Origin: a virus
Virus record (IMG/VR): IMGVR_UViG_3300031365_000004
Span: 1-43,303 of that record
Reading direction: 5' to 3' (one strand)
DNA length: 43,303 nt
This document shows positions 4,253 to 16,452 of this stretch, piece after piece (positions within the stretch are counted from its first letter, which is position 1; every line of letters starts with the position of its first letter). Position numbers and translations under genes: made by a program. The notes under the pieces are model-generated. The model had not been told where the DNA came from. It saw only the letters and a list, made by a program, of their open reading frames with translations, and searched no databases.

Positions 4253-4283
4253 TTGACTTTTGCATTTAAATGTTGTATCTTTG
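4253..4283 (+). promoter_or_regulatory. Bacteroidota-type promoter
   Basis: TTG (4253-4255, in ACTTGAC), a 20-bp spacer, then TATCTTTG (4276-4283) fit the Bacteroidota sigma pattern TTTG-N19-TAnnTTTG. The 33 bp from 4251 match 27 positions of the promoter at 6237-6269. Expected transcription start is at about 4288-4290, on the ATG of the first gene. Confidence 0.75.
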
Positions 4284-5622: not shown

Positions 5623-5734
5623 ATACGAGAATGTTATCTGGAAGTACTGTAAGTATTGTAAGGAGGTTACTCCTCATGTGAATGGTATATGTAAACACTG
5701 TGGAAATTTTAATTATGACAAAGAGATAGGTTGA
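5612..5734 (+). CDS. Mini zinc-ribbon protein, 40 aa
   Basis: Begins MKNRYENVIWKYCKYCKEVT and continues to CKHCGNFNYDKEIG: two C-x2-C pairs 14 residues apart, the same layout as the 5283-5423 product. Start lies inside the end of the upstream gene and its stop overlaps the next ATG (TGATG). Function unknown. Confidence 0.6.
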   Translation: MKNRYENVIWKYCKYCKEVTPHVNGICKHCGNFNYDKEIG

Positions 5735-5985
5735 TGGAAAAAGATTTAGTAGGTGTTATTGCCTTATGTTCGAAGGATATGTTAGGAGTTATAACAGGTT
5801 ATGATGAAAAGCGAAAGGTTTGGGTTGGTTATCAATTGGAGAAGAACCCTGGAAGTTCTTGGGAGAGCAGTCGACCTAGATTATTGACAACTTTAAAAAG
5901 GTTAAGAGATATGCCTCAGTGGTCTATAAGCAAGGATTTTGGTGAACTTTTATATGGAGATGACTATGGCAGAAGTGGTTATTAA
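5734..5985 (+). CDS. Hypothetical protein, 83 aa
   Basis: From ATG 5734 the protein starts MEKDLVGVIALCSKDMLGVI and looks like a small beta-barrel: alternating hydrophobics with 'KDMLGVITGYDEKRKVWVGYQL' followed by 'SSWESSRPRLL', as in small phage proteins with a Tudor/SH3-like layout. TTG at 5731 would add one residue only. No catalytic residues are seen. Confidence 0.6.
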   Translation: MEKDLVGVIALCSKDMLGVITGYDEKRKVWVGYQLEKNPGSSWESSRPRLLTTLKRLRDMPQWSISKDFGELLYGDDYGRSGY

Positions 5986-6191: not shown

Positions 6192-6219
6192 TGTTAGGGT
6201 TCCTAACAAAGGTTGTTAG
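6192..6219. promoter_or_regulatory. TGTTAG operator-like element, copy 1
   Basis: TGTTAGG-GTT-CCTAACA (6192-6208) is a perfect 7-bp inverted repeat, followed by a direct TGTTAG copy (6214-6219). The first and last TGTTAG start 22 bp apart. The same arrangement with 22-bp spacing and the shared TGTTAGAAAA tail is found at 22290-22317, also upstream of a promoter. Likely a binding site for a phage regulator. Confidence 0.6.
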
Positions 6220-6238
6220 AAAAAAAGTGCCAAAAAAC

Positions 6239-6269
6239 TTGACAAATGGATTTTAATGTTGTATATTTG
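6239..6269 (+). promoter_or_regulatory. Bacteroidota-type promoter for the structured RNA
   Basis: TTG (6239-6241 in ACTTGAC), 20-bp spacer, TATATTTG (6262-6269), an exact match to TAnnTTTG. It shares ACTTGAC and the TAATGTTGTAT core with the 4253 promoter. Transcription should start near 6275. Confidence 0.8.
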
Positions 6270-6275
6270 CAAAAA

Positions 6276-6534
6276 TAAGTTTAGGTTACCCTGAAGAGGG
6301 GCCTATGGGAAGCGGAAGTTACGTGTTAACTAAACCGTCAAGTTTAAGAGTATAACGTTGGTGATCTACTGTTGGGGACCATAAGATGTGAAAGGCAGTA
6401 GTGAGGCTTTAGGGGTACACTGGACCAACATATAAAGAACGACTTAAACATGTTCCTTGGGATCTTAAAGGTCTCGTTATCAAGTAGATAAACTTGATCA
6501 ATAGGGACCCCTCATCAGAAACAAGTTCTGATAT
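6276..6534 (+). ncRNA. Candidate structured RNA or long leader, about 260 nt
   Basis: No frame looks like protein between the promoter and the ATG at 6535, but there are many nested complementary segments: GTTTA-g-GTTA with TAAC-TAAAC (6279-6288 and 6327-6335) around a CCCT/AGGG hairpin; GTTGGT/ACCAAC (6357-6362 and 6424-6429) around CTACTG/CAGTAG (6366-6371 and 6396-6401); AACGA/TCGTT (6438-6442 and 6474-6478) around CCTT/AAGG; then ATCAAGT/ACTTGAT (6479-6498) and ATCAGAA/TTCTGAT (6514-6532). AGGGGT (6411) can pair with ACCCCT (6507), giving a possible pseudoknot. It is more G-rich than its surroundings. It could be a stand-alone RNA or a regulatory leader; the last hairpin ends 3 nt before the ATG. 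I did not recognise a known family. Confidence 0.65.
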
Positions 6535-6675
6535 ATGAAGAATAAGAAAAAGATAAAGAAGCTTAAGAAGAAGATAAAAGAGTTAGAGAGTAAGCTTCCT
6601 AATCCAACTATTAGAAAGATTGGGTTTGATTATTTGTATGAAGACGATAATGAGTATGAAGAAGAAGGATATTAA
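6535..6675 (+). CDS. Hypothetical Lys/Glu-rich protein, 46 aa
   Basis: Begins MKNKKKIKKLKKKIKELESK, a highly basic helix likely to form a coiled coil, then turns acidic (YEDDNEYEEEGY). The ATG directly follows the terminal hairpin of the structured RNA, so its translation may be gated by that hairpin. No family recognised. Confidence 0.5.
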   Translation: MKNKKKIKKLKKKIKELESKLPNPTIRKIGFDYLYEDDNEYEEEGY

Positions 6676-6677
6676 CT

Positions 6678-6848
6678 ATGAAACCCAGAATAAACTATCC
6701 GATAGTAAAAACAGACTCTGACAAGTATTATCCTTTAATGATATTAGATAGTTCTGGAGTTACACATTATTGGGATCATGATGGTAATTATGATGGTTGT
6801 TCAAGTGATCCACATATAGATTATGAAAGTGGAATTTGTTTAAATTGA
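6678..6848 (+). CDS. Hypothetical protein, 56 aa
   Basis: Begins MKPRINYPIVKTDSDKYYPL. Contains 'THYWDHDGNYDGCSSDPHID', which is Asp- and His-rich and might bind a metal, and ends with SGICLN. It follows 6535-6675 by 2 bp. Unknown function. Confidence 0.5.
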   Translation: MKPRINYPIVKTDSDKYYPLMILDSSGVTHYWDHDGNYDGCSSDPHIDYESGICLN

Positions 6849-7003: not shown

Positions 7004-7191
7004 AGAAGTTTATTAACAATGCTTGGGTCACAATAGTAATTTGGCAATTATTGTTTATTAGTGGATTATGGATTGGTAGTGCTAAGGTAGATAGTGCTAC
7101 AACTGCTATTCCTGCAGTTTTCTGGTTTGGTACATTTTGTTTATGGGCTTTTGGCATGAACAAAGGCTGGTTTAAAAATAAAGATGAGTAA
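7000..7191 (+). CDS. Small two-helix membrane protein, 63 aa
   Basis: Begins MKKFINNAWVTIVIWQLLFI; hydrophobic segments at about 8-26 and 36-53 are separated by SAKVDSATTA, and the tail is polar (KGWFKNKDE). ATGA coupling to the previous gene. It is the last gene before a clear terminator. Likely inner-membrane; function unknown. Confidence 0.6.
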   Translation: MKKFINNAWVTIVIWQLLFISGLWIGSAKVDSATTAIPAVFWFGTFCLWAFGMNKGWFKNKDE

Positions 7192-7205
7192 CCTCCTTTC
7201 TTTCG

Positions 7206-7246
7206 GGTTCCCTATGGCACTAGCCTACCGCTGTGGGGAACCTTTT
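7206..7246 (+). terminator. Rho-independent terminator
   Basis: GGTTCCC (7206-7212) pairs with GGGAACC (7236-7242) around a 23-nt loop, followed directly by TTTT. It closes the transcript that starts at the 6262 promoter. Confidence 0.7.
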
Positions 7247-7256
7247 ACTATTTTAA

Positions 7257-7871
7257 ATGGAGTCAATGACTTGTATAGGTATGTCACGTTCAGGACATAC
7301 TTTTGTTGCGAATAATATAAGATCCTGGTTACCTGAAGTGGAGTTTACTGATCAAGAGAACAGGATCTTTCCTAAGCAGGATTTTGATTATTCTTTTATA
7401 GTAGTAAGAGATTATATGAATTGGTTGGCTTCTTATCTTACTTTTTTAAGAAAGATTCCAAGAGAGAAATTAAGGTCTCATGCTGAAGTGTATGTTGGAA
7501 GGTACAAAGAGCTTTTAGAGGAATATCTTTTTCCTAAAAGGGTACCGAAGAGTGTGAGAGTTTGTTATGATTACTTCGTTAGGAATAGGTTATACAGGCA
7601 AGGTGTTTGTGAGATAGTAGGGGGTGAATATAACGAAAAGGTATTAGATAAGATACCAAAGAGAGGTGGTTATAGTTCTTTTGATAAGGATCATTATCAA
7701 GATAAAGGATCACAGATGGCTGTTTCAAGAAGGTATCAGCATATGCCAGGTAGTGATATAAGTAAGGAATATGTATATTTCTTAAAGAATGATAAGGGTT
7801 CTATACAGTTATGGAGAGAGAATTTTGGATTTACATCTGATCAGGAGGATTTTTTAAATATGTATAGATGA
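7257..7871 (+). CDS. Sulfotransferase-like P-loop protein, 204 aa
   Basis: Residues 6-22 (CIGMSRSGHTFVANNIR) match the 5'-phosphosulfate-binding loop of PAPS-dependent sulfotransferases (pattern RSGHTF). Residues 48-60 (IVVRDYMNWLASY) match the 3'-phosphate-binding motif (VRDP-like, Arg then Ser). The length is near the family's lower limit. By family rule it would move a sulfate from PAPS to a hydroxyl or amine of an acceptor. The phage makes no visible PAPS, so host PAPS would be needed. The acceptor is unknown: a surface glycan, a small molecule or a phage component. A P-loop kinase is the alternative, but two motifs at the right distance favour sulfotransferase. It starts 10 bp after a terminator's T-run, so it needs readthrough or an unseen promoter. 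Confidence 0.65.
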   Translation: MESMTCIGMSRSGHTFVANNIRSWLPEVEFTDQENRIFPKQDFDYSFIVVRDYMNWLASYLTFLRKIPREKLRSHAEVYVGRYKELLEEYLFPKRVPKSVRVCYDYFVRNRLYRQGVCEIVGGEYNEKVLDKIPKRGGYSSFDKDHYQDKGSQMAVSRRYQHMPGSDISKEYVYFLKNDKGSIQLWRENFGFTSDQEDFLNMYR

Positions 7872-8023
7872 TAGTAGAGTATGAGAGTGATAGTCTGGTA
7901 ATTCATTTTACCAGTGATTTAGAGAAGAATTATTTTAAAGAGAGGAGCCTCTTACTTATGGAGAGGCTTGAGGATGAAGAGGGGTTTTACGGTTTTAAAT
8001 TAGTGTTTAATGGAAAGAATTAA
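7868..8023 (+). CDS. Hypothetical acidic protein, 51 aa
   Basis: ATGA-coupled to the sulfotransferase-like gene. Begins MIVEYESDSLVIHFTSDLEK; it has a beta start, a helical LLLMERLEDEE segment and a final strand. It overlaps the next gene's start by 14 bp. Unknown function. Confidence 0.5.
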   Translation: MIVEYESDSLVIHFTSDLEKNYFKERSLLLMERLEDEEGFYGFKLVFNGKN

Positions 8024-8330
8024 AGATATTAAAGAGATTATTATTGGTGAAGGTGAGGTATTATTTGAGGTAATACATCCAAAGAGAAAAAGTGGAATAA
8101 TTTTAGAAGAAAAATTATCAGATAAGCGGACAAACGATTACGGCATTATTATTGCAAAAGGGTCTGCAGTAGTAGATCTTGAGGTAGGTGATATTGTTGT
8201 TCGTATTAGACCCAAAGATCTTCCTGGGTATGAGTATCATAACAAAGAATATGTATTAACTTCTAGATATAATATTGCTATAGTAGTCAAACCTGCTAAT
8301 TTCAGCCTAACAGAAGAGTTAAGAGCATGA
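8010..8330 (+). CDS. GroES-like co-chaperonin, 106 aa
   Basis: The order of elements fits the GroES fold: an early strand (EVLFEVIHPKRKSGIILEEK, like the 'KTSGGIVLP' start of the mobile loop), a Gly-rich turn (GIIIAKGS), 'LEVGDIVVRI' matching the conserved 'V-GD-V' motif, then a Tyr-rich segment and a final strand (YNIAIVV). Family length is about 95-110. It would cap host GroEL for folding of phage proteins, as T4 Gp31 does for its capsid protein. It overlaps its neighbours and lies upstream of the packaging module. Moderately sure; sequence identity to cellular GroES is visibly low. Confidence 0.6.
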   Translation: MERIKDIKEIIIGEGEVLFEVIHPKRKSGIILEEKLSDKRTNDYGIIIAKGSAVVDLEVGDIVVRIRPKDLPGYEYHNKEYVLTSRYNIAIVVKPANFSLTEELRA

Positions 8331-8829: not shown

Positions 8830-9157
8830 TGGTGCTGAGCGTATATATGTGATGTTAGGTATGTTTTCTATTTTCCCTCCTTACAGTCGATTAGACAATA
8901 GGGAAAAGAAAATCTTATCTGAGCTTTATTACATTAATAGTGAGCTTAAGCAGTTAAATGATCATCGTCGGGGGCAGATCATTTTTGATTATGATACAAG
9001 GAAGGAGATTGCACAGAAATACGGATTGAGTATGAACTCTGTTTACAATGTCTTCTCCTCCTTGAAGAAGAAAGGATTTATAGAAGATAACACTTTGCTT
9101 CATAAGTTAGATTATGAGGAGAGTGTTCTAATACAATTCAAAAAGAATGAACGTTGA
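8807..9157 (+). CDS. Winged-helix DNA-binding protein, 116 aa
   Basis: Begins MELNIPVNGAERIYVMLGMF. Residues about 63-98 hold a clear helix-turn-helix: 'DTRKEIAQKYGLSMNSVYNV' as helices 2-3 and 'FSSLKKKGFI' leading into the wing, as in MarR/GntR-type folds. A phage-encoded regulator just upstream of the packaging genes could control late transcription and is a natural candidate for binding the TGTTAG elements at 6192 and 22290, but that link is inferred. Stop overlaps the next gene by 11 bp. Confidence 0.65.
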   Translation: MELNIPVNGAERIYVMLGMFSIFPPYSRLDNREKKILSELYYINSELKQLNDHRRGQIIFDYDTRKEIAQKYGLSMNSVYNVFSSLKKKGFIEDNTLLHKLDYEESVLIQFKKNER

Positions 9158-9368
9158 TTTCGATGTTTTACAGGAGCATGGTAGGATTGTTAAGACGAGG
9201 ACATACGAGGATGTTGATAAGGCTCTAAGGGCTTATAGGGAACTATACGAGAGCTTATCCATCAATAAAGAGGTTATTTTTGGAAGGGAAGGAGAATCTT
9301 TTGACTTTAAATTAGGTATTTCCATATCCTCTCCATATATTATTACTGTACAAATATATTTAGGATGA
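9147..9368 (+). CDS. Hypothetical protein, 73 aa
   Basis: Begins MNVDFDVLQEHGRIVKTRTY; helical middle (DVDKALRAYRELYESL) and beta end (SPYIITVQIYLG). ATGA overlap with the metallophosphoesterase gene downstream suggests they are made together. No recognised family. Confidence 0.55.
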   Translation: MNVDFDVLQEHGRIVKTRTYEDVDKALRAYRELYESLSINKEVIFGREGESFDFKLGISISSPYIITVQIYLG

Positions 9369-10633
9369 AGAAAATATATCAATATGATGAAGAGGGTTTA
9401 TTGTTAAAATCTTGGAAAAGTATTGCAGCTGCAGCTAATCAGTATGATATTGATGAGTCTGCTATACGTAAGGCTGTTAGTCGGAATGGTACGTCTGCAG
9501 GATTTTTCTGGAGTAAGGAGAAGCTAAATAATTTTTTTGAGTCAGATCTTTCTCCTAAGTATGATGATATCTTATATGATCATAGTAAGCTTGAGTATAG
9601 CTTACAAAAGTCAAGAGACACTAATAGGATCAGTAGAGCCAAGAACAGAACTAATTATAGGTTTTACAATCTTATTGAGACTCTTAGTGATTCTTTAGAG
9701 AAGCAGTTTGAGTCTATTGCTTTTACTACTCCTGTGCAGGAGCCTAACATCGTTAAGAACGGTAAGGTTTTTATAGTACAGATCTCTGATGCACATTTCA
9801 ATGAGGAGATTGATCTGCCACATAACAGATATGATTTTTTTGAAGCCTCTAAGAGGATGCAGAAGCTTGCTTATAAGATCAAGAGTTATGCTGGTGAGGA
9901 CTTATCAAAGATCATTGTTGCTATGACAGGAGATATGATTAACAGCGATCGTCGATTGGATGAGATGTTAAATATGTCTACCAACCGAATGAAGGCAAGC
10001 TTATTAGCCACTTCCCTACTCTCTTACTTTATTAAGGAGATGGCTACTATCGCTCCTGTTGAGGTTGTTGCGGTAACGGGTAATGAAAGTCGTATACATG
10101 ATGAATGGGGATTAACAGATAAGATGTTAACAGACAACTATGATTTTCTAATTTTCAATATGCTCAAGGCAGTTCTTAAGGATCATCCATACATCACTTT
10201 TATGGATAGCAATCCAAAGGAGACGGTTGTTGAGGTTAATGGATTAAAAATATTAATTACACATGGAGAGATGTATAAGCAAGCGACTCAGGACCGAATA
10301 CAAAAAACCTTCGGGAGGTATGCTGCTAGAGGTATCAACTTGGATTACATTATCTTTGGCCACATCCACTTCGCTAATATTGGTGATATTTTTGCTCGTA
10401 GCGGCTCTATTTCTGGAAGTAATACTTATTCTGAATACGGGATTGACTTGGTTACGAAAGCTTCTCAGAACCTGCATATAATTTATAAGGAGGGTGAGAT
10501 GGATAATATCAGGATGGATATTCATAACACGAACGGTTTTCCTGGTTATCCTCTTCATGATGATGTGGATGCATACAATGCATTAGGGAATAAGAAAGTA
10601 TACAAGAAGTATACTGTTATAGTAGTGAAGTAA
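9365..10633 (+). CDS. NUMOD1-metallophosphoesterase fusion, 422 aa
   Basis: Residues about 1-55 (KKIYQYDEEGLLLKSWKSIA, then helix-turn-helix, then FFWSKEK) match the NUMOD1 DNA-binding repeat known from homing endonucleases. Residues 132-385 are a calcineurin-like phosphoesterase: SDAH (D142, H144), GD (189-190), GNES (239-242), TH (299-300) and GHIH (332-335), the five metal-site blocks in order. Block III reads GNE rather than the usual GNH, so the usual catalytic His is absent there; H245 is nearby. By family it hydrolyses phosphodiesters or phosphoproteins with two metal ions; the NUMOD1 domain points to DNA, as in Mre11/SbcD-like nucleases. It sits among late-region genes before the terminase, so DNA processing at packaging is plausible. 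Confidence 0.75.
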   Translation: MKKIYQYDEEGLLLKSWKSIAAAANQYDIDESAIRKAVSRNGTSAGFFWSKEKLNNFFESDLSPKYDDILYDHSKLEYSLQKSRDTNRISRAKNRTNYRFYNLIETLSDSLEKQFESIAFTTPVQEPNIVKNGKVFIVQISDAHFNEEIDLPHNRYDFFEASKRMQKLAYKIKSYAGEDLSKIIVAMTGDMINSDRRLDEMLNMSTNRMKASLLATSLLSYFIKEMATIAPVEVVAVTGNESRIHDEWGLTDKMLTDNYDFLIFNMLKAVLKDHPYITFMDSNPKETVVEVNGLKILITHGEMYKQATQDRIQKTFGRYAARGINLDYIIFGHIHFANIGDIFARSGSISGSNTYSEYGIDLVTKASQNLHIIYKEGEMDNIRMDIHNTNGFPGYPLHDDVDAYNALGNKKVYKKYTVIVVK

Positions 10634-11219: not shown

Positions 11220-11742
11220 TGTTACTTATGCTCCTCAAGCACTCCTTTTGAAACCTTTTAAGGAGTTATGGGAGAGGGATAAGAGTAAGAGTAAAGGGCG
11301 TGCGAAGGACGAGCTTGCGTACATCTGGTACATGGAGGATGTTCGGTCAGATTTTTATGATATTGTTGACGAGGACGAGAGGCGTACAGAGGTTTTAAAA
11401 TTTCTGACCGAGCTTCCCCCTTCTTACAAAGAGGATGCAGCCATTAAAACAGCTAAGAAAGAGTATAAGAGACTCTCAGAAGGGATGGCTGTCAAGCTGT
11501 TGAAGGATGCTATGATCATGATCCAGAAGATGCGTGTGGCTATGTTAGCAACAGATTTTGATGAGCGTGACAAATCTGGCAAGCCCATACATGATATTGA
11601 TAAGGTGATGCGGTATGTGGATCGTATTCCTACTCTTTTAAAAAGTTTAAAGGAGACCTATCGAGAGATAGAGAGAGAGGCTCAGGAACAACATCTCATG
11701 CGTGGTGATAGGATAAAGTCTACCTTTGAAGAAGGTATATAA
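11191..11742 (+). CDS. Candidate small terminase or terminase partner, 183 aa
   Basis: Begins MKIFEIENNNVTYAPQALLL. It is mostly helical and highly charged, with an acidic/basic heptad-like C-terminal half (VDRIPTLLKSLKETYREIER). It ends one base before the TerL ATG. Position directly upstream of TerL and the helical, coiled-coil-prone makeup fit a small terminase subunit, but no HTH DNA-binding domain is evident. The start overlaps the upstream gene by 29 bp. Confidence 0.5.
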   Translation: MKIFEIENNNVTYAPQALLLKPFKELWERDKSKSKGRAKDELAYIWYMEDVRSDFYDIVDEDERRTEVLKFLTELPPSYKEDAAIKTAKKEYKRLSEGMAVKLLKDAMIMIQKMRVAMLATDFDERDKSGKPIHDIDKVMRYVDRIPTLLKSLKETYREIEREAQEQHLMRGDRIKSTFEEGI

Positions 11743-11743
11743 T

Positions 11744-14044
11744 ATGATATATAAGACAAATAAGTGTCAAACAACATTAACGGACGAACATTTAAAAGAG
11801 TTGTCTAAGGATAGTAGAGCAGATTTTCTACATGTCTTAGACAATGTTATTTTTATAAACAGGCTTATCTCTCCTAATCGTAAGTATGCAAAGGACTTAG
11901 AAAGGGATGAGCTGGGACGTATTAAAGTAGATATTGTCAATCCACATATCCTTGAGGATACTGATTACTTTCGTCCTGCAGCATTACATTTTGAAGAGCA
12001 TGGTTCATACACAAACTTACCTCCTAACTCACATCCACGATCTGAATTTTATAGGTTCTGGAAGGAGGAAGCTAGACGCTGTCGTGAGGGTTATGTACGA
12101 GAGAGTGACGGTGAATGGATACCAGGAGACTACTATTATTATTTAAATTACTCTCCTATCCTACTTTCTAAGATGAGTGGTAAGTATCAGATCACTTCTC
12201 GTGTAGAGGGCTTTCCTAAGTTTTGGGATGGTAGTTACCTCTACTATCATTACATGGAACAGGCGCGTCATATGGGCAAGCATACTAACTGTCTCAAGTG
12301 TCGTGGGAGAGGATACTCTTTTGAAGGTGCTTCTCTACTAGGTAAGGTTTTTATTCTTGGAGATAGGGATGAGGATTCCCGTAAGAACCAAGCTGCCTTC
12401 GCTATTGCGAATGAGAAGGAATTCCTTATCAAGGATGGTATCCTGAATAAGTTCATGGATAATATTAACTGGTGTGCTAAGCACACTCCTTGGCCCCGTA
12501 ACAGACTAAAGGACTCCTTGGACAATATGACCTGGACAATGGGTTATAAGGATAAGAGTACACAACAGATTAAAGGTACAGAGAATGAGGTCTCTGGTGT
12601 TTCTCTGAAGAATGACCCACAGAAAGCTCGTGGTAAGAGGGCTTGTCGTATTGAGTGGGAGGAGTTCGGTAAGTTTCCACACGTACTTACAGCATGGCAG
12701 ATTGCTCGTCCCTCTGTTGAAGATGGTGGAGTGGCTTTTGGACAGATGAATGGCTTCGGCACAGGCGGAACATTGGGAGCAGACTTTGTTGCTGCAGAGG
12801 CTATGTTCTATGGGCCAGAGGGATATAACATTTTGTCATTGCCCAATGTCTTTGATCTGGGTACAGATGGCACCTCACGGTGCAGTTTCTTTCATGGTGA
12901 ATATCTCAATAGGAATCTTTGCTATGATAAGGAGGGCAACTCAGATGTAATAAAGGCTCTCTTAGAGACGTTCACAAAAAGAGAAAAAATTAAATTTGGT
13001 TCTGCAGACCCGAATACTATTATACAAGAGAAAGCTGAATCCCCTATCTTTCCGCAGGAGGCTATTATGAGGCGAGAAGGTTCTATCTTTCCTGTTATGG
13101 ATCTGAAAGAACATTTAGCGGATGCAGCTGTTGATGTGAATAAGTTCACTGCAGCACATTATGTAGGTGACCTATATCATACTGGTGAGGGAGAGATGAA
13201 GTGGCGTATTAATCATGATATCTTCCCTATACGTGAGTATCCTTTAAAAGATCAGTTACATAAGAGAGGTGCCATAGAGATTTTCCAAATGCCTATTAAG
13301 AACCATGAGGGTTTAATCCCTTGGTTACGATATATTGCGGGCGGAGATACCTATGATGATGATTACTCTATTACTGATTCACTAGGAAGTGTATTTATTT
13401 TTGATCGTTTTACCGATCGGATCGTTGCGGAGTATACTGGTCGTCCTGCTACAGCTAATGAGTTTTATGAGATTGTGCTACGCTTGGTAAGGTACTATAA
13501 TGCTTTACTTAACTATGAGAACAATAAGAAGGGCTTGTTCACTTACTTCATGCATAAGCACATGATCAATTACTTGGCAGAGACACCTCAGATACTAAGG
13601 GATATGGAGTATATTAAAGATCCACGTATGTATGGAAACAAGATGTATGGTACACCTGCCAGTAAGTCTATCAGTTCCTGGGGTAGACGATTACAAGCTG
13701 ACTGGATGCGTGATGTTGCAGTAGGTGAATCAGACACATACATAGATGAGAAGACCGGAGAAGAGGTGGAGAGAGTCCCTTTGATGAACCTGCAGAAGAT
13801 ACGCTCCTTGGGTTATATTAGTGAAGCTATCGCATGGAACCCAGATGGTAACTTCGACCGTGTAGATGCTATGACGCAGGTTATGATCCTAAGAGAGCAA
13901 CTGATGAAGTTTGATGCTAAAGAGTCTGTTCAGAGAGTAAAAACAAAGGCGAAAGATGATTTCTTTGCTCGGATGGACAAGTATACACAAACAGCACAAC
14001 GCTATAATCTACAAAAAAATTATGCCTCTTCATTTGGAAATTAA
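11744..14044 (+). CDS. terL: Terminase large subunit, 766 aa
   Basis: DNA-packaging motor ATPase and nuclease. Residues 184-196 (LKCRGRGYSFEGA) are the degenerate P-loop seen in crAss-like TerL proteins. RIEWEEFG (302-309) fits Walker B with the catalytic Glu; GFGTGGT (337-343) fits the coupling motif. The nuclease half has AGGDTYDDD (532-540) with the first metal-binding Asp, NYENNK near 590 (Glu) and FDRVDAMT near 700 (Asp), the usual RNase H-like acidic triad. Length is typical for crAss-like terminases and much longer than lambdoid ones. ATG 11744 is chosen over TTG 11726, which would overlap the upstream gene. Confidence 0.9.
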   Translation: MIYKTNKCQTTLTDEHLKELSKDSRADFLHVLDNVIFINRLISPNRKYAKDLERDELGRIKVDIVNPHILEDTDYFRPAALHFEEHGSYTNLPPNSHPRSEFYRFWKEEARRCREGYVRESDGEWIPGDYYYYLNYSPILLSKMSGKYQITSRVEGFPKFWDGSYLYYHYMEQARHMGKHTNCLKCRGRGYSFEGASLLGKVFILGDRDEDSRKNQAAFAIANEKEFLIKDGILNKFMDNINWCAKHTPWPRNRLKDSLDNMTWTMGYKDKSTQQIKGTENEVSGVSLKNDPQKARGKRACRIEWEEFGKFPHVLTAWQIARPSVEDGGVAFGQMNGFGTGGTLGADFVAAEAMFYGPEGYNILSLPNVFDLGTDGTSRCSFFHGEYLNRNLCYDKEGNSDVIKALLETFTKREKIKFGSADPNTIIQEKAESPIFPQEAIMRREGSIFPVMDLKEHLADAAVDVNKFTAAHYVGDLYHTGEGEMKWRINHDIFPIREYPLKDQLHKRGAIEIFQMPIKNHEGLIPWLRYIAGGDTYDDDYSITDSLGSVFIFDRFTDRIVAEYTGRPATANEFYEIVLRLVRYYNALLNYENNKKGLFTYFMHKHMINYLAETPQILRDMEYIKDPRMYGNKMYGTPASKSISSWGRRLQADWMRDVAVGESDTYIDEKTGEEVERVPLMNLQKIRSLGYISEAIAWNPDGNFDRVDAMTQVMILREQLMKFDAKESVQRVKTKAKDDFFARMDKYTQTAQRYNLQKNYASSFGN

Positions 14045-14082: not shown

Positions 14083-16452
14083 ATGGCACATTATTTAAAA
14101 AATGCTGATTCCTTTTCTCCTTTTCCTCATCAGAAGAGGACGGACGCAGAGAAGACTAAGAAGTTCTTTAAGGAATGTATAGATGCTGGGATTAGTGTTA
14201 TCAGCAGTGAGATAGGGAATGGCATACGTGCTACAAAAAGAAACATGCTTATCAACTATGATCTTATTGCTAATAAGATACATGACGCTGAGGTTCAGCG
14301 TGTGGTTAATCCCTTTGGCATTGAGTATGGTAAGCTGCCTGATAACTATAGGAACTGTCCATTATTGAACTCCAATCTTATGCTCTTATGGGGTGAGGAA
14401 AGGAAACGCTTCTTCAATCCTATTGTTACTATGGTCAATAGTGATGCTGTCAATGAGAAGCTTAAGATGTTGGATAAGCAGGTAGATGATTTTATTATCA
14501 AGGAGGCTACTGATCCTACTATGTCTGAGGAGGAGCTTGTCAATCGTTTCCGTGAGCTGGATGACTGGAAGAACTTCCAATACCGTGATCGCAGGGAACG
14601 TATGGCACAGCAGGTTATTGATTATGGTTTTAATATCTTAGATCTAAAAGATGTTTTCAGTCGTGGCTTTGAGGACCTGACGGTTGCTGGAGATTCTATC
14701 TATATAACAGATATTATTAATGGTGAGCCTATCCTTCGTCGTGGAGATCCTATCACTCTTACTGTTTTAAGAAGTGGCAATTCACCTCACATAGAGGATG
14801 CAGACATGATTATTGAAGATCGTTATCTGCCTGTTGGTAAGGTGATAGATGAGTATTACGATGAGCTTACCAGTAAACAGATCACTGAGCTGGAGGAAGG
14901 TGCTAATGTTCACAAGAGGTCTATGGGGGGTCTTATGGGCAACCAGCTTCTTCATGGTAAGACAGATTTTTCTAGTTATGTAGAGGCTGTTGGGATAGGA
15001 GAGATTATTGTTGGTGTTAACAAGGATGGTATCCGCACTTTTGGTAGTGCCTTTGATGAAGAGGGTAATGTACGTGTCACTCGTGTACTATGGAAGGGGA
15101 TGCGTAAGATAGGTGTTGTAACTTATATAGATGAGCTTGGTGAGCTACAGAAGTCTTTTGTTCCTGAGTGGTATGAACCCCTTGTGGAGATGGGCGAGGC
15201 TGTCAAGTGGATATGGATCTCTGAGTGGTTAGAAGGAACGAATATTGGTGAGGATATTAAGGTAAAGATGGGTCCTCGTGATGTACAGTTCAGAAGTATG
15301 GATAACCTTTCTAAGTGCCATCCTGGTATAGTAGGTATCTCTGCTAATGTGGGGAATACTGAATCTCGATCATTGGTTGATCTGGCAAAGCCTTATCAGT
15401 ATCTTTACAATGCCGTTCTTCATAAGATGGAACTGGCTATTGCAAAGGATTTTGGTAATCTTGGGAGGCTTGATCTCTCTATGGTGCCTGATGACTGGAG
15501 CATGGATAAGTGGCTTTATTATGCTTACATGATGGGCTGGATGGTTGAAGATCCTTTTAATGAGGGTAAGAAAGGTGCTGCAATGGGTAAGCTGGCTGGC
15601 ACAATGAACCAGAACTCCAAGAGCGTTGATCTTACTCAAGGACGGTTTATTAGTGATCAGATGTCTATTCTTCAGTTTCTTGAGAACAGAGTAGATAATA
15701 TCACAGGTATTACCCCTCAACGTAAGGGTGCTATAGATAACCGAGAGACGGTGGGTGGTGTGGAACGTTCAGTAACTCAATCTAGCCATATCACTGAGAA
15801 GTGGTTCTCTCTACATGATAGCACTAAGGTCAGGGCATTAGAGGCGTTTATTGAGACCGCTAAGATCGCCTGGCGGGGTAAGTCCTTCAAGAGAAGTTTT
15901 GTTCTAGATGACTCTAGCATGGGTATCCTGGACTTCGACTCGGAAGTTTTCAATGAGGCTGAGTATGGTATCTACGTCACTACCAGCTCAAGTGATATGG
16001 AGATGATCCAACAGCTGAAGGCATTAACACAGCCCTTCCTGCAGAACGGTGGTTCAATGTCTATTATCATAGATATCTTCAGGACGAAAGATCCTGCATC
16101 CTTACAGCGTAAGATAGAACGGTATGAGAGCAAGATGGCTGAGCAAGCACAACAGGCACAACAAGCAGAGATGGCTGCTGAGGAGAGGCGTGTTGCTCGT
16201 GAGGAGGCTATGAAGAAGTATGAGATTGATATGAAGTATAAGCAAGCTATTGATACGGAGCTATTGAAGCAAGGTGCACAGGAAGGTGAGCTTGAGGATA
16301 CTGGTTTAGAAGAGGAGAAATTTGAACAGGATAAGGTTGAGCATGAGGATAAGATGACTCTTGAGGAGAAGAAGCTTAGAGAGCAGATACGCTCCAATAA
16401 GGAAAAAGAAAAGATCCAAAGGCAGAAACCTAAGAGTACAGCAACTAAGTAA
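14083..16452 (+). CDS. Portal protein, 789 aa
   Basis: Position between TerL and the capsid genes, and length near that of crAss-like portals, identify it. The N-terminal 120 residues are basic/helical (KRNMLINYDLIANKIHDAEV). The core is mixed alpha/beta with 'DLTVAGDSIYITDIINGEPI', typical of the portal stem/wing. The segment 'QMSILQFLENRVDNITGITP' then 'RETVGGVERSVTQSS' matches the helix and crown part seen in crAss-like portals. The last 110 residues are a long Glu/Lys/Gln-rich coiled coil (barrel/crown extension). It forms the dodecameric vertex through which DNA passes. Confidence 0.85.
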   Translation: MAHYLKNADSFSPFPHQKRTDAEKTKKFFKECIDAGISVISSEIGNGIRATKRNMLINYDLIANKIHDAEVQRVVNPFGIEYGKLPDNYRNCPLLNSNLMLLWGEERKRFFNPIVTMVNSDAVNEKLKMLDKQVDDFIIKEATDPTMSEEELVNRFRELDDWKNFQYRDRRERMAQQVIDYGFNILDLKDVFSRGFEDLTVAGDSIYITDIINGEPILRRGDPITLTVLRSGNSPHIEDADMIIEDRYLPVGKVIDEYYDELTSKQITELEEGANVHKRSMGGLMGNQLLHGKTDFSSYVEAVGIGEIIVGVNKDGIRTFGSAFDEEGNVRVTRVLWKGMRKIGVVTYIDELGELQKSFVPEWYEPLVEMGEAVKWIWISEWLEGTNIGEDIKVKMGPRDVQFRSMDNLSKCHPGIVGISANVGNTESRSLVDLAKPYQYLYNAVLHKMELAIAKDFGNLGRLDLSMVPDDWSMDKWLYYAYMMGWMVEDPFNEGKKGAAMGKLAGTMNQNSKSVDLTQGRFISDQMSILQFLENRVDNITGITPQRKGAIDNRETVGGVERSVTQSSHITEKWFSLHDSTKVRALEAFIETAKIAWRGKSFKRSFVLDDSSMGILDFDSEVFNEAEYGIYVTTSSSDMEMIQQLKALTQPFLQNGGSMSIIIDIFRTKDPASLQRKIERYESKMAEQAQQAQQAEMAAEERRVAREEAMKKYEIDMKYKQAIDTELLKQGAQEGELEDTGLEEEKFEQDKVEHEDKMTLEEKKLREQIRSNKEKEKIQRQKPKSTATK

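Follow-up and report, generated by a model that had tools for sequence, protein, structure and literature searches.

The DNA analysed here (the window) is a whole 43,303-base IMG/VR virus contig, which belongs to a crAss-like phage according to its terminase (11726-14044, matching phrog_6681) and portal (14083-16452, matching phrog_6547); the terminase is about 44% identical to Crassvirales terminases. The genes point leftward up to approximately 4116 and rightward from 4270. The element under study, 6239-6534, lies 2 kb inside the rightward module, with the terminase 5 kb further downstream, and the next ATG ORF after the element begins at 6535. The window also encodes a GroES-like co-chaperonin (8010-8330, phrog_3188), whose position is kept in many crAss-like phages, and a 422-aa protein (9365-10633) with a calcineurin-like phosphoesterase domain and an N-terminal NUMOD1-like stretch below the Pfam cut-off. 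The genome collection yielded terminase matches in four MAG contigs, whose host labels are implausible; nothing about the host could be learned from them. The element has two parts:

6239-6269, plus strand: Bacteroidota-type promoter, TTG (-33) and TATATTTG (-7), recognised in the sequence by pattern match
6276-6534, plus strand: structured non-coding RNA, its 5' end inferred from the promoter and its 3' end placed at the end of hairpin Hi

The original prediction had described an exact TAnnTTTG promoter followed by no gene for about 265 nt, and both statements were borne out. The letters at 6239-6269, TTGACA-(17)-TATATTTG, match the pattern exactly and agree with the sigma-ABfr consensus, TTTG/TAnnTTTG (PMC7366714); judging from these letters, transcription would be expected to start near 6275-6277. 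Because 0.8 chance occurrences of the bare pattern are expected per window, the motif match alone is weak proof and it is conservation that counts: the homolog described below has a TTTG/TTG...TATATTTG promoter in the corresponding position, and most related RNAs are preceded by one. A second exact promoter (TTG-20-TAnnTTTG, 4253-4283) is found at the switch from leftward to rightward genes, before the first rightward gene (ATG 4288). No plus-strand ORF of at least 20 aa overlaps 6270-6534, the largest minus-strand ORF there being 35 aa, and the unusual gene-free space proved a good guide. The downstream gene proposed at 6535-6848 does start at 6535 but consists of two ORFs, 6535-6675 and 6678-6848. 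When folded against dinucleotide-shuffled controls, as had been suggested, the plus strand reached -71.2 kcal/mol, modestly above the shuffles (z -2.23; 4 of 200 as good), and the opposite strand gave z -1.67. RNAs at the same position in relatives are no more stable (z -1.4, -1.3 and, for phage crAss001, +0.25). Fold stability by itself is thus weak, suggestive support, and covariation decides.

Such covariation came from a homolog at 376-671 of another contig, L082, with 69% identity to the element (blastn E 2.5e-14); the same contig encodes a 422-aa protein 79% identical to that of the window. Searches by DNA similarity with either element against 50,697 phage records returned chance-level pieces only, the 5' block of the element, used as an exact pattern against IMG/VR, retrieved the L082 contig only, and the upstream gene at approximately 5731-5985, used as search bait, had no IMG/VR relatives. 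This gene is conserved in L082, and the ORF directly downstream of the RNA there is unrelated to that of the window. Consequently, the RNA is not tied to the gene at 6535-6675. A riboswitch-like leader for 6535-6848, as once envisaged, is disfavoured on this account and by the division of that stretch into two ORFs.

We aligned the two elements with MAFFT, blind to structure, and took 56 pairs from the fold of the window. Over both sequences 87.3% were paired and nine pairs had changed on both sides, a result equalled in 2 of 500 shuffles; when the partner was slid by 1-3 columns, pairing fell to 39-51% with 0-4 compensated pairs. Moreover, in an unbiased scan of all helices of at least 5 bp that pair in both sequences, ranked by compensatory changes, the top three were Hd 6357/6429 (three changes), Hb 6317/6331 (three) and the long-range pairing Lr, 6411-6416/6507-6512 (two); a parallel-strand control yielded no compensated helix. 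The resulting anatomy is as follows, all on the plus strand:

6296-6301: 5' strand of P1a, GAGGGG, pairing with 6508-6513; retained by L082, where one G-C pair has become G-U
6302-6306 with 6501-6505: P1b, CCTAT/ATAGG, which closes the RNA; formed by both sequences, two pairs having changed on one side only
6307-6311 with 6453-6457: P2, GGGAA/TTCCT, present in the minimum-free-energy fold; invariant in L082 and hence silent on covariation
6312-6315/6335-6338 and 6317-6321/6327-6331: Ha/Hb hairpin, loop CGTGT; four compensatory pairs against L082
6342-6348 with 6443-6449: Hc, GTTTAAG/CTTAAAC, enclosing Hd and He; one compensatory and two wobble changes, all pairs kept
6357-6362 with 6424-6429: Hd, GTTGGT/ACCAAC; three compensatory changes
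6366-6373 with 6394-6401: He, CTACTGTT/GGCAGTAG, with GGGACCATAAGATGTGA in its loop; in L082 GTATATT/GGTATAC around a near-identical loop, the register between the two being set by hand
6411-6416 with 6507-6512: Lr, AGGGGT/ACCCCT, a pseudoknot; AGGAGC/GCTCCT in L082 (G-C to A-U, U-A to C-G), both changes compensatory and no pair broken
6459-6475: Hg hairpin, GGGATC-TTAAA-GGTCTC; GAGATT/AATCTC in L082
6479-6498: Hh hairpin, ATCAAGT-AGATAA-ACTTGAT, just before ATAGGGA; CAGC/GCTG at the same place in L082
6514-6532: Hi hairpin, ATCAGAA-ACAAG-TTCTGAT; in L082 the stem differs by two compensatory changes and the loop ACAAG is unchanged

The terminal loop of the long Hc-Hd-He arm, GGG(A/G)CCATAAGAT, is nearly invariant. 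Hi lies outside the closed body and ends 2 nt before the ATG at 6535. He, Hg and Hh were misaligned by MAFFT, yet they can be drawn in both sequences. The 3' strand ACCCCT has two possible partners. It may join the 5' GAGGGG as P1a or, as Lr, the AGGGGT that lies in the inner loop separating Hd from He. Of these two helices, Lr is better supported by covariation, and it is compatible with P1b.

Conserved helices in relatives had been proposed as a check on the seven helices first drawn, and the nine compensated pairs with the top-ranked Hd, Hb and Lr provide them. Four of the seven (6357/6424, 6366/6396, 6479/6492 and 6514/6526) are present, and each can also be drawn for L082, where the letters have changed. 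The helix at 6289/6297 exists too, but it is invariant in L082 and competes with the closing helix, and two (6279/6331 and 6438/6474) have no counterpart there. The possible long-range pairing of 6411 with 6507 is kept through its two compensatory changes; the helices are therefore not all nested, as had been stated, since this pairing makes a pseudoknot. The covariation of the window's own RNA rests on two sequences, only one close homolog being present in the collections searched, and the inner loops are uncertain because RNAalifold on the same two sequences gives partly different inner helices. Even so, we regard it as very probable that the element is a conserved structured RNA, whether or not it belongs to the wider family described below.

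The RNA could in principle be the remnant of a known RNA. Group I introns are common in crAss-like phages (PMC7886860), and in Steigviridae tRNA arrays occupy the same interval. However, no Rfam 15 family matched the window at gathering threshold (GOLLD, ROOL, group I intron, tRNA, tmRNA, RNase P and riboswitches included), only three chance-level matches appeared at E<=10, and in the relatives Rfam found only tRNAs located elsewhere. ARAGORN found neither tRNA nor tmRNA in the window. The motif GGUAAAGCCACCC was considered for its likeness to RNase P and rejected, with no covariance-model match and no P4 consensus. A promoter directly before the RNA and conserved covariation argue against decay, and we give this reading almost no credence. 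Altogether, the description of a structured non-coding element of no known family is supported by the homolog, the covariation and the Rfam negatives.

About 32 other crAss-like records have a promoter-led structured RNA of approximately 150-330 nt at the corresponding position, heading the rightward module upstream of the terminase. Terminase-based scans of IMG/VR gathered more than 100 relatives. Among these, a search for a promoter followed by a gene-free gap gave L007, L016 and L017 (gap 296-297 nt); profiles built from these three led to L174, L187, L198, L190, L175, L180 and L012, and the covariance model R1 added L043 and L040/L041, together with L159 and L157 in part. In the R1 subfamily (L007/L175; 13 contigs, 12 distinct rows in alignment A9), 96.8% of cells are paired and 37 of 48 pairs are compensated, against none of 500 shuffles and at most 17 in slid controls, in an alignment that was fitted to the model and is thus biased toward it. 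In A5, made with MAFFT and not fitted to the model, 24 of 43 pairs are compensated. A second large subfamily of 13 contigs (L191, L181, L183, L171, L172, L170, L173, L185, L182, L169 and L204-L206) has 37 of 70 pairs compensated and its own covariance model, R3. Related or candidate elements were also seen in L013 (z 6.9 to L159), L023, L063, L061/L078 and cr85_1. L067, tried as a nearer relative, was rejected: its interval holds tail genes and its AGGGGCTCC motif is coding. In L210 (cr108_1), a promoter-led 250-nt gap around 7165-7312 contains a very short lysine-rich ORF and, reaching up to tRNA-Asn, a stretch rich in hairpins; it is possibly another variant of the RNA.

Known phages carry the RNA as well, among them the cultured crAss001 (L143; MH675552). 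There it spans approximately 659-985, after gp2 and ahead of gp3, with the tRNA array following at once, and no annotated feature covers its body, only 26 nt of gp2 overlapping the start of the searched stretch. It is also present, without an annotated feature, in 25 B. intestinalis phages, cr112_1 and cr128_1, the last being intermediate between crAss001 and L043/L040 (alignment A13; scores against shuffles z 15.6, 8.0 and 7.9).

We then asked whether the RNA of the window belongs to this wider family. With filters off, R1 and R3 found no significant match in 6200-6700, and R2, the covariance model of the window's RNA, matched only the window and L082 (222.6 bits for L082, which is itself in the model) and none of the other subfamilies. 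Nevertheless, the window agrees with the family in having a sigma-ABfr-type promoter directly before a non-coding stretch within the 150-330 nt range, and the two together head the rightward module, upstream of TerL. The order of parts is also the same. A closing helix CC(U)/AGG, then GA, with a hairpin just before AGGGA, an arrangement found by inspection and not predicted beforehand, is seen in the window (6302-6306/6501-6505 plus Hh) and in alignment A12 (columns 121-128/286-293), and a hairpin before AGGGA is recurrent in the relatives. A strict descriptor of P1 plus a hairpin retrieved the window and L082 only and is therefore too tight for the wider family. Pairwise sequence scores form a chain when compared with shuffles, from L082 to L023 (16/4000, this pair being one of many tried) and from L023 to L191 (2/2000) and L175 (0/2000); none was significant between the window itself and members other than L082. 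What connects the window's RNA to this syntenic crAss-like family is its position, its promoter and its architecture, together with a single weak link in sequence, and we consider membership probable. A motif common to the window and the L191 group, CACTG..TRTAAAGAA..TGTTCC, had been noticed by eye and was set aside, as pairwise scores against shuffles did not by themselves support it.

The relatives also bear on whether the RNA is an independent gene. Intrinsic terminators (hairpin of -9.7 to -18.6 kcal/mol plus a T run, 8-9 T in most) follow the RNA by 80-155 nt in at least 10 relatives (L187, L198, L175, L180, L174, L171, L173, L182, L169, L204 and L023), and in several of these the next gene has its own promoter; there the RNA therefore forms its own transcription unit. 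In both large subfamilies the spacer that separates AGGGA from the terminator repeatedly holds a short motif resembling AAGTTGTTT (L187, L175, L180, L171, L173, L182, L204, L169 and L174). The earlier view of a stand-alone RNA is thus favoured by the promoters and terminators of relatives, but the window itself has no terminator after 6534, and its RNA may be co-transcribed with the following genes. L082, crAss001, L190, L191 and L159 likewise lack one, and in these cases as in the window an ORF starts within about 50 nt. These six cases agree with a different scenario, in which the RNA is a cis-acting leader of the late module. As it emerges it would bind the polymerase that is making it and cause this enzyme to pass terminators, in the processive antitermination of PUT and EAR elements, or it would protect or regulate the long transcript. 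Its invariable location at the head of the rightward module, beside a promoter and on the coding strand, fits this scenario. In crAss001 the structural genes lie downstream of the RNA, and late or structural genes of this phage are thought to depend on the host RNA polymerase (PMC8375218). Against it stand the strong terminators with separate promoters for several next genes, the turnover of the genes immediately downstream, and the earlier exact promoter at 4253, an entry to the module that does not require a start at the RNA. We hold such a leader to be possible but rather unlikely. The put RNA of HK022 and the EAR element of Bacillus are similar in being structured RNAs that head a long transcript; they differ in that many of the relatives here end in their own terminator, and Rfam gave no match.

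We therefore favour, at roughly even odds, the view that 6276-6534 is a stand-alone, fast-evolving structured non-coding RNA gene whose product acts in trans with a protein partner. Transcription would be carried out by the host RNA polymerase, probably at a middle or late stage, and would begin at the RNA's own promoter, which is of sigma-ABfr type and heads the rightward (structural) module. In the folded body, P1b and P2 would enclose the Ha/Hb hairpin and the long Hc-Hd-He arm, two or three hairpins would follow on the 3' side, and through Lr the 3' tail would reach back to pair with the long arm's inner loop. The RNA would then most likely serve in trans as the folded partner of a protein. 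Sequence drift under a fixed shape and place is typical of RNAs with a co-evolving phage protein partner, such as the phi29 pRNA. Because shape and position are kept here while the sequence drifts fast, a phage-encoded partner seems more likely. The idea of a protein partner is in this respect an analogy with the phi29 pRNA and not evidence for packaging. We infer that the RNA is expressed, that it acts in trans, that it has a protein partner and that it is homologous to the other subfamilies. A bolder reading, which we hold slightly less likely than not, is that a pseudoknotted and so far undescribed RNA gene family extends across much of Crassvirales, from many uncultured contigs to the cultured gut phage crAss001, and serves a core step of infection, possibly by means of a conformational switch between P1a and Lr.

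A packaging or assembly RNA, comparable to the phi29 pRNA that serves its ATPase, would suit the conserved synteny about 5 kb upstream of the terminase and the divergent sequence under a common shape, which phi29-like pRNAs also display. However, the terminase here is an ordinary crAss-like large subunit (phrog_6681), and motors of this kind are not known to require an RNA. Moreover, L067, whose best terminase segment is 59% identical, has no such RNA in the approximately 10 kb upstream, and we judge this role highly improbable. The likeness to the phi29 pRNA lies in a small phage RNA with drifting sequence and kept shape near the packaging genes, whereas size, fold and terminase kind are different and Rfam gave no match. 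Alternatively, the RNA could target the host, inhibiting a defence system, the RNA polymerase or ribosomes or serving as a decoy for one of these: fast divergence with retained shape would suit an arms race, and the promoter is of host type. Yet many different crAss-like phages keep it in one position, where the structural module begins and not in an early region, which is atypical of accessory counter-defence genes; an anti-host role is accordingly improbable.

The nearest kind among known RNAs is GOLLD/ROOL. These are likewise encoded by phages or prophages, ornate, pseudoknotted, of unassigned function and located near tRNA islands (PMC12286853), and the RNA of Steigviridae (crAss001) sits directly upstream of the tRNA array. 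They differ in size, sequence and fold: GOLLD often exceeds 800 nt, against 150-330 nt here, and neither sequence nor covariance models matched. The Bacteroides sRNA GibS also has a sigma-ABfr promoter and a terminator, but it was reported to be relatively unfolded (PMC7366714), whereas the RNA described here is heavily structured and phage-borne. In the open-access literature we found no non-coding RNA described for crAss-like phages, and this RNA would add a large structured class to the order. It was missed by homology searches because its sequence drifts fast under a fixed shape. The RNA also offers a possible marker for the head of the late module, and the copy in crAss001, an unannotated RNA gene, is directly testable in an existing phage-host pair. 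The crAss-like phages are among the most abundant human gut viruses, and for the majority of their genes no function is known.

Two further features emerged from the comparison of the window with L082. A hairpin-rich, terminator-like gap follows a conserved 63-aa gene in both, at 7190-7250 of the window (TTCGGGTTCCC...GGGGAACCTTTT) and at approximately 1050-1110 of L082 (TAGCTCCC...GGGAGCTTTC). In addition, the alignment is broken within the terminase by about 1 kb of extra sequence (L082 7744-8786) and again before the portal (9071-10408), both of which may correspond to intron or homing-endonuclease insertions.
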